In this document: in pieces, positions 11,629 to 16,705 of the stretch
Position numbering within the stretch: the first letter of the stretch is position 1
How the letters are laid out: each line of letters opens with the position of its first letter
Position numbers and translations under genes: made by a program
Source: Spirochaetota bacterium
GTDB taxonomy: Bacteria > Spirochaetota > UBA4802 > UBA5550
Direction: 5' to 3'
DNA: 64,000 bases
Assembly: GCA_025457915.1 (NCBI GenBank)
Contig: JALOTL010000004.1
Span: 62,001 to 126,000 of the forward strand
Notes under the pieces: model-generated
What the model saw: only the letters and a program-made list of their open reading frames with translations
Database searches by the model: none
What the model was told of the DNA's origin: nothing

Positions 11629-12024
11629 TCATTTTACGGAGATGACGATTTCAATCTCCTTCTGCGGCTTTTCATTCTTCAGCCAGGGCCTCGAGTATTT
11701 GAACGCGATCTTTCCCTCGCCCTGGGCCTTGGCCTTGAACATGAATTCCTGGAATTCATAACCGCCGGGCTTCAGTTCATCAACCTTGTACTGGATGGGT
11801 TTCCCGAAGGTTTCTATGAAACCGCACTTGTTTTCAAAGCCCCAGCTGAATCCGGTGCCCAGCTGGGCCTTCAATTTTATCGAAAAAACGTCTCCGGAAG
11901 AGACCTCTACCCTGTCGTCTTTTTTAGGCTCCGTAACCACCACCTTCGGTTTTGTTGCGCATGATATTAATAAAAAAAACAGAATTGCGAAAATTGGAAA
12001 AGCTGCCAGTCGGCCCTTGCTCAT
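11629..12024 (-). CDS. Chagasin-family (I42) cysteine protease inhibitor lipoprotein
   Basis: 131 residues with a lipoprotein signal (lipobox LIS-C22). The mature domain carries the three inhibitory loops of the chagasin family in order: GTGFSW (the NPTTGxxW-type loop), a Gly-Gly loop in ELKPGGYEFQEF, and SRPW (the RPW loop) near the end. Chagasins block papain-type proteases by inserting these loops into the active-site cleft. The gene starts 22 bp after the stop of a papain-family protease gene, behind GGAGGG, so protease and inhibitor are encoded in one operon. As a lipoprotein the inhibitor would sit in the periplasm or outer membrane, positioned to protect the cell from its own enzyme. 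The loop motifs make the assignment strong; the pairing is inferred from adjacency. Confidence 0.87.
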   Translation of the reverse strand: MSKGRLAAFPIFAILFFLLISCATKPKVVVTEPKKDDRVEVSSGDVFSIKLKAQLGTGFSWGFENKCGFIETFGKPIQYKVDELKPGGYEFQEFMFKAKAQGEGKIAFKYSRPWLKNEKPQKEIEIVISVK

Positions 12025-12046
12025 ATTATCAACCCTCCATGTTTTA

Positions 12047-13339
12047 TTAATCGTTTCTATCGACGACCAGCCATGCGGCGCCGTACCCGATATTGTTGCA
12101 CCCGTACTCGATCCAGAAGTACCCCCTGTCGCCCCACTGGGTTCCCCATGAATTCTTGACCAGGTATGCCTTCCTGTTGTCGTCCCATCCGACGATGGTT
12201 ATGGCGTGGTTGATGTCCTTCTCGCCCTTGCTTGAATCGATCTGGGCGAACTCGTCGAACACCCCGTTCTTGTAAGCCTGCAGGGCGGGGGTCACTTTCA
12301 CGCAGGCGGCGATCGGCCCGTATTTGCAGAGGGCCTTTTTCATTTCATTGACCGATGGTATACCGGCATCGCTCCTGACGTAGCCCCAGGCCTTGATCTT
12401 GTATTCGGAAATCGGATTGGGCATGCAGGCGCTGTTCCTGTTCTTATATGGAATGGACTGTTCCGTGGCGGCGCTGTTTCTCATGAGGTAATCGAACACC
12501 CGCCCGTACCATCCCCCGTTGCAGGTACCCGCCCTCTGCCCGTAGCCGTCAACCGAGCAGTCCAGTATATGCTGTTCGGAAAAATCCAGTTCCTGGTTCC
12601 TCCTGATCTTGTAATTCGCCTCGAGAACCGCCACGGACGTAAAGGCCCAGCAGCTGCCGCAGGTGTACTGGTGCTTGACCGGGGTCACTTTTTTCGCTGA
12701 TACCCAGCTGAAAGCGGCGGCGGTCGGCGACGGCGCGTTTTCAATGTCGCCCTTGTCATAGTCGGGCTCCTGTTTGTCGTTGTTGCGGTTTTCCTCCTCG
12801 CGCTTCCTTTCCTCTTCCAGTCTCTTCTGTTCCTCGTCGTCCTGCTTCTTCTTATACGAGTACTGGTCCTTTTTCCTGTATTCGTAGGACTTGGATTTCT
12901 TCTTTTTATTCTGATTATTCTGGTCCTGGAGTTGGAGCATGTACTGTTTCATGAATTCCTTCCACATCCTTTCCCCCCTGGAAGACTGGACCCTGGCTTC
13001 CTTTTCGAGGTTCTGGGGGATATCGGCCCCTGTTATCTGTGCGATGTTGTACTTCATCATTTCGTTGAGCTCGACCCTGAATTTAAGGTTCCTGTTTTTA
13101 ATCTCGTTCCTGACCTCGGTAAGCATCTTCCTCAGCTCGTCCGGGGTCTTAACGAGTTTTTCCCTGTCGCTTTTAATATTGTCGAGGATCTGCTTTCTTG
13201 CGTCCCTGATCGAAGGCTTTTTTATAACGCCGTCGGATCCATCCTGGCCGGAAAGCGGCGCCTGCCCCGCCAGTGAAAAGCAGAGGACTGCGAACAGGCC
13301 GGATAATAAAACTTTATTCGATCTGTGATTTTTCTTCAT
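12047..13339 (-). CDS. Secreted papain-family (C1A) cysteine protease
   Basis: 430 residues. A signal sequence (first ~26 residues) precedes a long N-terminal region, with a helical part to ~135 and a very charged linker of ~135-200 rich in Lys, Glu, Gln and Tyr. The catalytic domain follows at about 210-428. All four catalytic positions are visible: Q224 (oxyanion hole, VKHQYTCGSCW), C230 (GSCWAF), H378 (INHAITIVGWD) and N396 (VKNSWGTQWG). CNGGW near 273-277 is also typical. The helical part may act as a propeptide, but ERFNIN-type spacing was not recognised. It is the first gene of a two-gene operon with the chagasin-like inhibitor, started by ATG behind GAGGTG. The enzyme should be active outside the cytoplasm. 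Confidence 0.93.
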   Translation of the reverse strand: MKKNHRSNKVLLSGLFAVLCFSLAGQAPLSGQDGSDGVIKKPSIRDARKQILDNIKSDREKLVKTPDELRKMLTEVRNEIKNRNLKFRVELNEMMKYNIAQITGADIPQNLEKEARVQSSRGERMWKEFMKQYMLQLQDQNNQNKKKKSKSYEYRKKDQYSYKKKQDDEEQKRLEEERKREEENRNNDKQEPDYDKGDIENAPSPTAAAFSWVSAKKVTPVKHQYTCGSCWAFTSVAVLEANYKIRRNQELDFSEQHILDCSVDGYGQRAGTCNGGWYGRVFDYLMRNSAATEQSIPYKNRNSACMPNPISEYKIKAWGYVRSDAGIPSVNEMKKALCKYGPIAACVKVTPALQAYKNGVFDEFAQIDSSKGEKDINHAITIVGWDDNRKAYLVKNSWGTQWGDRGYFWIEYGCNNIGYGAAWLVVDRND

Positions 13340-14145: not shown

Positions 14146-15087
14146 CTATTTTAAAAATTTCATCGAGGTTTTTTTCATTTGTTCTATTAAATCCCTGGTC
14201 CGCTTTTCCCTTCCTGCCGCGTTAAGATGGTAGACCGTGTCAAAGTAATATTCTTCAGGATAAAGGAAGTCATAGGGGCTTCCTATCATTTCAATTTTTA
14301 TTTTATCTTTTATGTCAGAATACAGCGAACCCAGATCATCCCTGAACTGCTTTTCAGGATTTCCTGACGGGGGATTCATGGTCGGAAATGCCAGGTAAAG
14401 CCTGACATTTTTCTTTTTACAAAATTCCGACAGGTCATTCATCAGTATCTCGACCTTCCCGGAGACCTTCCTGGGTACGTATTGTCCCATTTTATCGAGC
14501 CTGGGCTTGAGGGCAAGGTGCGCCGTGTAATCGCCGTGTTCGTCGAATCCGGATCTCCTGTAGTTGTATTCGTTCCTCTTTTTGGATTTCGTGAAAATCC
14601 CCCTGAGCCTTCTCTGGAAGGTGATGGGAAGGTTTTCAAAATAACAGTCTATGTTTTCCTTGGAATAATAAAGAAGGGACCTTGGATAAAAAATCGACAG
14701 CTCGACCAGGGTGGTCCTGCCGCCGAAAAAAAGTCCGTCGTAAAAAATATATTCCAGCATGAAGACCAGTATATCGCCGTCCCTGAGATAGGGCTTGACT
14801 TCATTTACGTAGAACTGGGGCCCGAGACCGCCGTGCAGTCCCATGTTGACGACGTTGTACCCTGTCGCGTCCCTTACCATCCCGCTGTCGAACCCGAATG
14901 CGAGCCCGGACCCGCCGATGAATATGATCCTCGGCTGTTCCGTTTTTTCCAGCAATTTATGCTTTTCAATTGACGCGGCGATGAAAATATCCTGGTCGAT
15001 CGGCGACAGGTATATTACGCCCACCAGATACGATATGATCATCGCGATGAAAATCAGGAATTTTAATATAAATCTTTTCATTCGCAA
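14146..15087 (-). CDS. SGNH-like membrane-anchored protein, partner of the MBOAT acyltransferase
   Basis: 313 residues with one N-terminal membrane anchor (about residues 8-28). The extracytoplasmic domain contains IIFIGGSGLAFGFDS, resembling block I of SGNH-hydrolase-like proteins (Ser in GGS), and ends with FDTVYHLNAAGREKRT, resembling the Asp-x-x-His block V. DltD, AlgJ/AlgX and similar proteins with this layout pair with MBOAT acyltransferases to move acyl groups onto extracellular polymers. It begins 4 bp after the stop of the MBOAT gene, so the two form an operon. The exact polymer (exopolysaccharide, lipopolysaccharide or other) cannot be deduced. No alginate or teichoic acid genes are near. 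Confidence 0.72.
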   Translation of the reverse strand: MRMKRFILKFLIFIAMIISYLVGVIYLSPIDQDIFIAASIEKHKLLEKTEQPRIIFIGGSGLAFGFDSGMVRDATGYNVVNMGLHGGLGPQFYVNEVKPYLRDGDILVFMLEYIFYDGLFFGGRTTLVELSIFYPRSLLYYSKENIDCYFENLPITFQRRLRGIFTKSKKRNEYNYRRSGFDEHGDYTAHLALKPRLDKMGQYVPRKVSGKVEILMNDLSEFCKKKNVRLYLAFPTMNPPSGNPEKQFRDDLGSLYSDIKDKIKIEMIGSPYDFLYPEEYYFDTVYHLNAAGREKRTRDLIEQMKKTSMKFLK

Positions 15088-15091
15088 ACCA

Positions 15092-16705
15092 TTAAAATTG
15101 AAAGTATATGAACATCGACGTCTTGTATATACCCAGCAGGATGCCGAGCGCCAGGAGATGATAAGCCGCCCACCTCATCCACAGCGGCTTCCTCCTGATC
15201 ATCTCCCTGATGCTTCCCCTGTTCTGCATTATATTGACCGCGAAAAGAAACGCCACGAGGCCCAGCATGGATATGAATTCAGCCTTGTCCAGCCCCATGA
15301 AGACATCGCTCTGCTTCAGGGTCAGGAGATTTGAAAGGATGGTGATGCCGTCCTTTACGCTTGCCGCCCGGAAAAAAACGACGGAAAAGGAGAACAGGTT
15401 GAACGTTACGAAGGTCATCCATACCCTCTTTAGTGCCTCGGCCGGTGATGATTCACCCGTTTTGCCGGATGCAATCACTCCAAGCATTACAAGCAAGAGC
15501 CCGGCCGCGAACACCGCCCACATGGCCGGCCGGAACATGTCGGGCGCCAGTTTGAATATCGCGAGCAGACTGAAGCAGGACATCGATATGCCGGACACGA
15601 AATACGCCCTCATCGGCACCCTTCCTATCAAATCGAATATCAGGTCCCTGGTCCGCTGCCTGAAATTTCCAGTGATCCTCCCGATGAAAATAAACGCTCC
15701 ATTGAGCGCCCCCCACAGGATGAATGTCCATTGGGCGCCGTGCCACAGTCCGCTTATCACGCACACAAGCATCGTGTTGATAAAAAACCTGGGGCTGGAA
15801 ACCCTGCTGCCGCCCAGCGGAATATAGAGGTAATCCCTGAACCATGAAAGCAGGGACATGTGCCAGCGCCTCCACAGGTCCGAGATGGACGCGGAAAGAA
15901 AAGGCCTCTTGAAGTTGGGGACAAGTTTGTATCCCATCATCTGTCCTATTCCTATCGCTATGTCGCTGTACCCGCAGAAGTCGCAGTATATCTGTATTGA
16001 AAAAAAGTATATGCCGATCAGGACGGCAAAACCCTCGTATGATGCCGGCGAAGAAAAGAGCTTGTTTACGTAAATCGCAAGCCTGTCAGCGATCACGAGC
16101 TTCTGGAACAGGCCCCACGCGACGAGCTTTAGCCCGTCTGTCACCCTGTCGTAGTCGAATATTTTTTCCTCCCTGAGCTGCGGAAGGAGATTCGTGGACC
16201 TTTCTATCGGCCCGGAAAGTATTACCGGGAAAAAACTGACGTACAGGGCGAGAATCCCGATGTGCCTCTCCGCCTTTCTCGTACCCCTGTAAACGTCCAT
16301 CGTGTAGCTCAATGCCTGCAATATGTAGAATGATATGCCTACCGGCATCAGCAGGTTAAGCTCAGGCACGTTGTACTGTATGTTGATGATGCCGAAAAGG
16401 TCCTTGAGATTTCTGCTGAAAAAATTGAAGTATTTGAAAAAAAACAGGAACCCGAGATTCATGAAAAAACTGGCGGCAAGCAGGAGCCTCCTCGTCCTCA
16501 TGGATCTCCCCTCCATGAGCAGGGCCGATGAATAGATGATGAACGTCGATGCCACGAGAAGGACAGCGTATTCCGGCTTCCATGACATGTAGAAAAAATA
16601 GCTCGCCGCGAGCATGAAGGCCCACCTGAATCTGAAGGGAAGAAGGTAGTACGCAATAAATACTGCGGAAAAAAACAGCATGAATTCAGGGGAATTAAAA
16701 AGCAT
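15092..16705 (-). CDS. MBOAT family O-acyltransferase, AlgI-like
   Basis: 537 residues with about a dozen membrane segments, the normal size for the AlgI/DltB branch of membrane-bound O-acyltransferases. It contains the family signature SDLWRRWHMSLLSWFRDYLY followed by IPLGGSR, and the catalytic-histidine region SGLWHGAQWTFILWG. The N-terminus MLFNSPEFMLFF is also typical of AlgI-like proteins. It should transfer acyl groups (often acetyl) from a cytoplasmic donor across the inner membrane to a partner protein, here the SGNH-like protein encoded 4 bp downstream. It is the first gene of a two-gene minus-strand operon. Confidence 0.92.
   Translation of the reverse strand: MLFNSPEFMLFFSAVFIAYYLLPFRFRWAFMLAASYFFYMSWKPEYAVLLVASTFIIYSSALLMEGRSMRTRRLLLAASFFMNLGFLFFFKYFNFFSRNLKDLFGIINIQYNVPELNLLMPVGISFYILQALSYTMDVYRGTRKAERHIGILALYVSFFPVILSGPIERSTNLLPQLREEKIFDYDRVTDGLKLVAWGLFQKLVIADRLAIYVNKLFSSPASYEGFAVLIGIYFFSIQIYCDFCGYSDIAIGIGQMMGYKLVPNFKRPFLSASISDLWRRWHMSLLSWFRDYLYIPLGGSRVSSPRFFINTMLVCVISGLWHGAQWTFILWGALNGAFIFIGRITGNFRQRTRDLIFDLIGRVPMRAYFVSGISMSCFSLLAIFKLAPDMFRPAMWAVFAAGLLLVMLGVIASGKTGESSPAEALKRVWMTFVTFNLFSFSVVFFRAASVKDGITILSNLLTLKQSDVFMGLDKAEFISMLGLVAFLFAVNIMQNRGSIREMIRRKPLWMRWAAYHLLALGILLGIYKTSMFIYFQF

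Follow-up and report, generated by a model that had tools for sequence, protein, structure and literature searches.

A papain-family (C1A) protease and a chagasin-family (I42) inhibitor are encoded side by side in the window, the 64,000-nucleotide stretch of Spirochaetota DNA analyzed here, and the same pairing recurs in its order and, as linked genes or fused domains, in other bacteria and archaea. We consider it likely, at a probability of roughly 0.7, that the protease and a dedicated inhibitor are made from one transcript, and that the inhibitor sits anchored, blocking its partner's active site and protecting the envelope. The protease family, the inhibitor family and the arrangement are all known; what appears to be new is their combination with a lipid-anchored chagasin.

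The protease and inhibitor genes

Both genes are on the minus strand, with the inhibitor gene 3' of the protease gene. An initial annotation of this DNA had described them as lying 22 bp apart, and the coordinates are confirmed here. The features of the locus are:

12047..13339, minus strand: gene for the C1A papain-family protease, 430 aa, with a predicted Sec-type signal peptide
13244..13339, minus strand: N-terminal signal peptide region of the protease, approximately residues 1-32, with a basic n-region and a hydrophobic core
13016..13102, minus strand: pro-segment-like block of the protease (pro-block), residues 80-108
12725..13003, minus strand: Lys/Glu-rich linker of variable length between pro-block and catalytic domain, as seen in the alignment
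12095..12715, minus strand: catalytic domain of the protease, residues 209-415, with Q224, C230, H378 and N396
12025..12046, minus strand: intergenic gap of 22 nt, holding the Shine-Dalgarno-like GGAGG of the inhibitor gene
11629..12024, minus strand: gene for the I42 chagasin-family inhibitor, a predicted lipoprotein of 131 aa (Pfam Inhibitor_I42, E 9.7e-14)
11959..11970, minus strand: lipobox LISC (L19-I-S-C22), its Cys invariant in 26 orthologues
11842..11859, minus strand: putative inhibitory loop L2, GTGFSW (G56-T57-G58-F59-S60-W61), equivalent of the chagasin NPTTG loop
11683..11691, minus strand: putative inhibitory loop L6, RPW (R112-P113-W114), from the sequence and the loop assignments in PMC2607524
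11571..11598, minus strand: weak candidate terminator hairpin 3' of the inhibitor gene, 28 nt, in which a stem forms

A Shine-Dalgarno-like stretch precedes each of the two genes, and the 22-nt gap suggests that they are co-transcribed as one operon. The candidate terminator was folded equally well by 12 of 200 shuffled sequences and is absent from the output of a consensus terminator scan; a promoter scan of the locus stayed at chance level and gave no convincing promoter. Neighbors in the window include genes for TatC, a VTT/DedA protein, an amino-acid permease, an MBOAT acyltransferase and an SNF2 helicase, with no evident tie to the pair. The MBOAT gene is followed, within 14146-16705 on the minus strand, by a gene for a 313-aa membrane-anchored protein that has no Pfam match, and these two are possibly a pair for O-acetylation of surface polysaccharide.

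The family assignments of the initial annotation hold: the Pfam scores of both proteins are far above cut-off, and the folds predicted by AF2 agree. In the protease, Peptidase_C1 matches residues 209-415 with an E of 1.9e-48. The AF2 model matches cathepsins K, L and S in a fold search of the PDB (TM-score 0.85 over target against cathepsin K), which indicates a papain fold. Glutamine, cysteine, histidine and asparagine follow one another in papain order inside the C1 domain, as expected of a C1A protease, and the four residues named earlier (Q224, C230, H378 and N396) are all present and are invariant across 24 aligned proteases. No lipobox is found in the signal peptide region on reading its sequence; the aligned orthologues have the same signal-peptide layout, often ending in AQ. 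As read from its sequence, the window protease is an exported protein with an intact active site.

Between the signal peptide and the charged linker, which forms long helices in the AF2 model, lies the pro-block. Its residues F87, K96, I102 and G104 are invariant or nearly so in the protease alignment. No Inhibitor_I29 or Propeptide_C1 match is listed in Pfam for the 24 protease orthologues, nor did profiles of the pro-block bring up a meaningful match in the PDB, so that its role is deduced from its position and from its absence in fusion proteins (see below). On these grounds residues 80-108 probably act as a propeptide. We take the pro-block to resemble the cathepsin B prosegment, a likeness for which Pfam and the PDB returned no confirming match.

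The inhibitor scores 51.9 bits against Inhibitor_I42, where the curated cut-off is 27.2. Its AF2 model (pLDDT 89) has its best PDB matches among chagasin/ICP structures, with EhICP2/chagasin entry 3m88 at E 4.6e-10 and also 2oul and 2nqd; the twelve best matches are all inhibitors of chagasin or falstatin type, in keeping with the Ig-like chagasin fold. The motifs reported earlier (GTGFSW, the Gly-Gly loop, RPW and the lipobox) are all there, and the residues invariant among 26 aligned inhibitors are C22, T57, G58, W61 and, in the Gly-Gly loop, G87. The three loop motifs of chagasin (NPTTG in L2, GxGG in L4, RPW/F in L6) are thus recognizable with substitutions: L2 reads QLGTG and L4 reads PGG, while the TG and W of L2, G87 and RPW are present. 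Read in this way, the inhibitor is an exported protein that is lipidated at an invariant Cys and has conserved inhibitory loops, and it is probably anchored in the membrane. The position of chagasin T31 is occupied by Gly in the window inhibitor and by Gly or Ser in its family. In chagasin, the T31A change weakens inhibition of cruzipain about 40-fold and does not weaken that of cathepsin L (PMC2607524). Since this effect depends on the protease, affinity for the partner is not readable from the motif.

The host is a 3.66-Mb draft genome with two C1A and two I42 genes, among which the window pair is the only linked one; related public records come from uncultured Spirochaetota, among them the MAGs RBG_13_51_14, UBA2205 and UBA5550. 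The second C1A gene (C21:54491) and the second I42 gene (C16:16691) lie on separate other contigs, and specificity could therefore be shared. The second I42 protein (G000:C16:16691-16957; L064:6506-6970) is an unlinked lipoprotein with the loop NPSTGYAW, and its Pfam model score is higher than that of the window inhibitor.

Conservation of the pair within the order

We searched 46 genomes of the order for C1A and I42 domains with Pfam. I42 was found in 29 of them (30 genes) and C1A in 30. As in pairs of the staphopain/staphostatin kind, adjacent genes on the same strand are kept in relatives: 28 of the 30 I42 genes, from six families, lie directly 3' of a same-strand C1A gene. Both domains occur in 28 genomes, neither in 15 and one only in 3, and every genome with both has an I42 gene directly after a C1A gene on the same strand. 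The corresponding Fisher p of 4e-9 ignores kinship, is uncorrected for phylogeny and is indicative only. Where start codons could be assigned, the gaps range from 1 to 113 nt and are mostly 9-30. By the test that the initial annotation had set, a unique and accidental adjacency would have counted against the pair; its presence in 28 genomes shows that it is neither.

Two genomes, G003 and G043, have C1A without I42, and in G043 the contig ends at the gene. In a third, G038, I42 occurs without C1A and is a fragment only. G003, which is 98% complete, encodes a catalytically intact orthologue (L042/L073), and the Pfam search found no I42 next to it or anywhere else in the genome; the gene that follows is convergently oriented and looks like a chemotaxis receptor. 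This genome has apparently lost its I42 partner for real. Because it keeps the protease, the inhibitor is not strictly required.

A comparison of eleven loci found no other neighbor common to more than a handful of close relatives, and flanking genes change between genera. The pair therefore stays together as its surroundings change.

Conservation across an order also bears on the idea that the two genes are a toxin-immunity pair, contact-dependent or diffusible, in which rivals would have their envelope attacked by the protease, with the lipoprotein giving periplasmic immunity. Periplasmic lipoprotein partners are common among immunity proteins, which suits this idea. Papain-like peptidases are moreover found among polymorphic toxins, and peptidase inhibitors such as Imm35 among their immunity proteins (PMC3482391). 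Against it stand the order-wide conservation of the pair and the make-up of the protease, in which Pfam and the alignment revealed nothing beyond a signal peptide, a pro-block, a linker and the C1 domain. A trafficking domain, a repeat region and any signal for toxin delivery are all missing; the catalytic domain is generally cathepsin-like and does not belong to the Tox-PL family. We regard a toxin-immunity role as very improbable. Treponema denticola TDE0362/T-Mac, a weak fold match, was set aside as a Mac/IdeS-type protease separate from the C1A/I42 system.

Linkage and fusion in other prokaryotes

A scan of public prokaryote genomes with a profile of the protease returned 80 loci, in 36 of which an I42 domain is fused into the C1A gene or encoded close to it. 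Holders of a linked or fused I42 include Cyanobacteriota, Methanosarcina, Methanosaeta, Planctomycetota, Acidobacteriota, Calditrichota, Bacteroidota, Myxococcota, Pseudomonadota and Chloroflexota. We examined 50 C1A-bearing whole genomes reached through such loci, outside the order search: I42 is present in 35, and 28 of those 35 have at least one I42 that is fused to a C1A or lies no more than 2.5 kb from one on the same strand, a share that is not a census since the genomes were picked by the similarity of their C1A to that of the window; one of the 50 (L102/G120) is apparently genome G026 of the order again, judging from identical coordinates. The initial annotation took tight pairing to be unusual among most carriers of either family. 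This belief was wrong for the C1A lineages examined, and the pairing itself is the more interesting for it. The earlier interpretation stands as to a conserved operon whose products are exported, with the inhibitor lipid-anchored and the catalytic site intact, and fails as to the rarity of the pairing elsewhere.

On a tree of 94 catalytic domains the state changes between linked and alone 15 times, and at least 6 of these changes are forced by well-supported branches. Synteny can persist passively between close relatives, and the adjacency could in principle be inherited gene order without functional meaning. We find this barely credible, as the flanks are not conserved beyond a few genera and linkage arises repeatedly on the C1A tree, with I42 downstream, upstream or fused. 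Chance adjacency was likewise rejected, on the linkage within the order, the co-occurrence, the changing flanks and this recurrence.

Some linked inhibitors differ in form. Three tandem I42 domains occur in cyanobacterial proteins of Microcoleus and Okeania (L092:2510-3640, plus strand, and G105:C553), each with an adjoining C1A gene. No signal peptide is evident at the start of the C1A-linked inhibitors at L090, L096 and L098, which come from methanogens and one Anaerolineae MAG; where the inhibitor is located thus varies from lineage to lineage.

Thirteen reading frames hold both an I42 and a C1A domain, and Pfam confirmed all 7 of the 7 tested. In 12 of the 13, mostly from Chloroflexota with a few from MAGs named Deltaproteobacteria, I42 is N-terminal of the catalytic domain (L110, L112, L114, L116, L118, L125, L126, two at L129, L135, L138 and L146); in the remaining one, from Singulisphaera, it is C-terminal. 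A Levilinea genome (G137) has four fused frames by Pfam. Unfused C1A proteins carry, between signal peptide and catalytic domain, the conserved block F-x-V-x-x-T/N ... I-x-x-I/L-T/C-G, which in the window protease is the pro-block at residues 80-108. A profile of this block, built from unfused proteins, matches 83 of the 88 unfused C1As, against 0 of 12 fusions with I42 at the N-terminus (p 6e-12, a value that overstates independence because the profile comes from unfused proteins and the fusions may represent as few as 1-2 events on the tree). I42 therefore sits in these fusions where the intramolecular inhibitor normally is, and chagasin seems to have replaced the pro-segment in cis.

The position of I42 in fusions that lack the usual block might be taken to mean that the window inhibitor is mainly a partner in folding or secretion, an external propeptide acting in trans for which inhibition is secondary. 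The window protease, however, retains its own pro-block, G003 has a protease without I42, and the inhibitor is predicted to be membrane-anchored by its lipobox; we think such a role improbable.

Comparison with known systems

The window inhibitor shares the Ig-like fold and the TGxxW, Gly-Gly and RPW loops with chagasin/ICP proteins of family I42, such as Trypanosoma cruzi chagasin, Pseudomonas aeruginosa ICP and Pseudomonas syringae Cip1. Unlike these, it is a lipoprotein with an invariant lipobox Cys, and L2 reads QLGTG or QLSTG in place of NPTTG, with T31 replaced. It is also encoded beside a C1A gene, whereas most chagasin-bearing Pseudomonas genomes have no C1A (PMC5014320). The latter fact favors an inhibitor with external targets, the papain-family proteases of predators, hosts or competitors, whose linkage to C1A reflects only a shared situation of use. 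Cip1 inhibits C1A proteases of tomato (PMC5014320), and chagasins are broad in spectrum (PMC7863939). An outward target is nevertheless unlikely in our estimate: the inhibitor is lipid-anchored here, its occurrence follows that of C1A nearly one to one, and fusions place inhibitor and protease in one chain. The cyspin Clocel_0147 of Clostridium cellulovorans is presumably chagasin-like. It too is a bacterial secreted inhibitor of cysteine proteases (PMC4305082) and, unlike the window inhibitor, is thought to guard the cellulosome from plant proteases.

Control of an endogenous protease has closer counterparts. In T. cruzi, an endogenous C1A, cruzipain, is held by an endogenous I42, chagasin (PMC7863939); that pair is eukaryotic and not an operon, and protozoan chagasin has no signal peptide (PMC5014320). 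In the bfp4/bfi4 pair of Bacteroides fragilis, as here, an exported cysteine protease and a lipoprotein inhibitor with a suggested self-protective role are co-encoded (PMC2873492). There, however, the protease is of family C10 and the co-transcribed inhibitor, a predicted lipoprotein, is staphostatin-like in fold (PMC2873492). Staphopain/staphostatin and SpeB/Spi similarly combine a secreted protease of the papain superfamily with an adjacent, co-transcribed specific inhibitor (PMC2873492). Their proteases belong to C47 and C10, and in place of a chagasin these pairs use a lipocalin-like protein and a propeptide analogue as inhibitors. We know of no lipid anchor on staphostatin or Spi inhibitors. 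A search of the open-access literature, with some older key papers outside its scope, found no description of an operon of C1A and a lipoprotein I42 or of a chagasin pro-segment.

Proposed function of the pair

We propose that the protease would be exported as a precursor consisting of signal peptide, conserved pro-block, charged linker and papain-type catalytic domain, and that the chagasin-type inhibitor would be exported, lipidated on Cys22 and held at the membrane. There it would plug the cleft of protease that is activated prematurely or remains cell-associated. Blocking would involve three loops (GTGFSW, Gly-Gly and RPW) and would be tight and reversible, as seen in the chagasin complexes whose structures have been solved (PMC7863939, PMC2607524); the known chagasins inhibit C1A proteases by tight binding, with Ki values from pM to 100 nM (PMC7863939). 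By analogy, the inhibitor probably binds the window protease. Released protease would leave the anchored inhibitor behind and digest external protein, the envelope being protected during transit or release. Release may proceed through type II secretion machinery: in the host genome, a gene for a GspE-like ATPase comes directly after one for a secretin (a gspD/gspE-like pair), so that an outer-membrane exit route is plausible for the protease. We infer the cellular site of each of the two proteins, and likewise self-protection of the producer as the purpose of the inhibitor; the pro-block of the protease might already be enough for control.

A broader reading is that C1A and I42 form a general prokaryotic control module with two interchangeable forms, one co-encoded in trans and one in which I42 replaces the pro-segment in cis; to us the odds on it appear about even. 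The trans form is lipid-anchored here, next to a protease whose own pro-segment is retained, and the cis form would be that of Chloroflexota and some Deltaproteobacteria.

The role of bacterial chagasins has been described as unelucidated (PMC5014320), and the best-studied bacterial case acts on plant proteases. The operon, the recurrent linkage in bacteria and archaea and the fusions together offer a testable case that many prokaryotic chagasins control C1A proteases of their own. For the organism, the lipid anchor suggests a spatial logic, in which the inhibitor stays with the cell and the protease leaves. If the module reading is true, many bacterial chagasins would regulate endogenous proteases first, rather than serve as anti-host factors.
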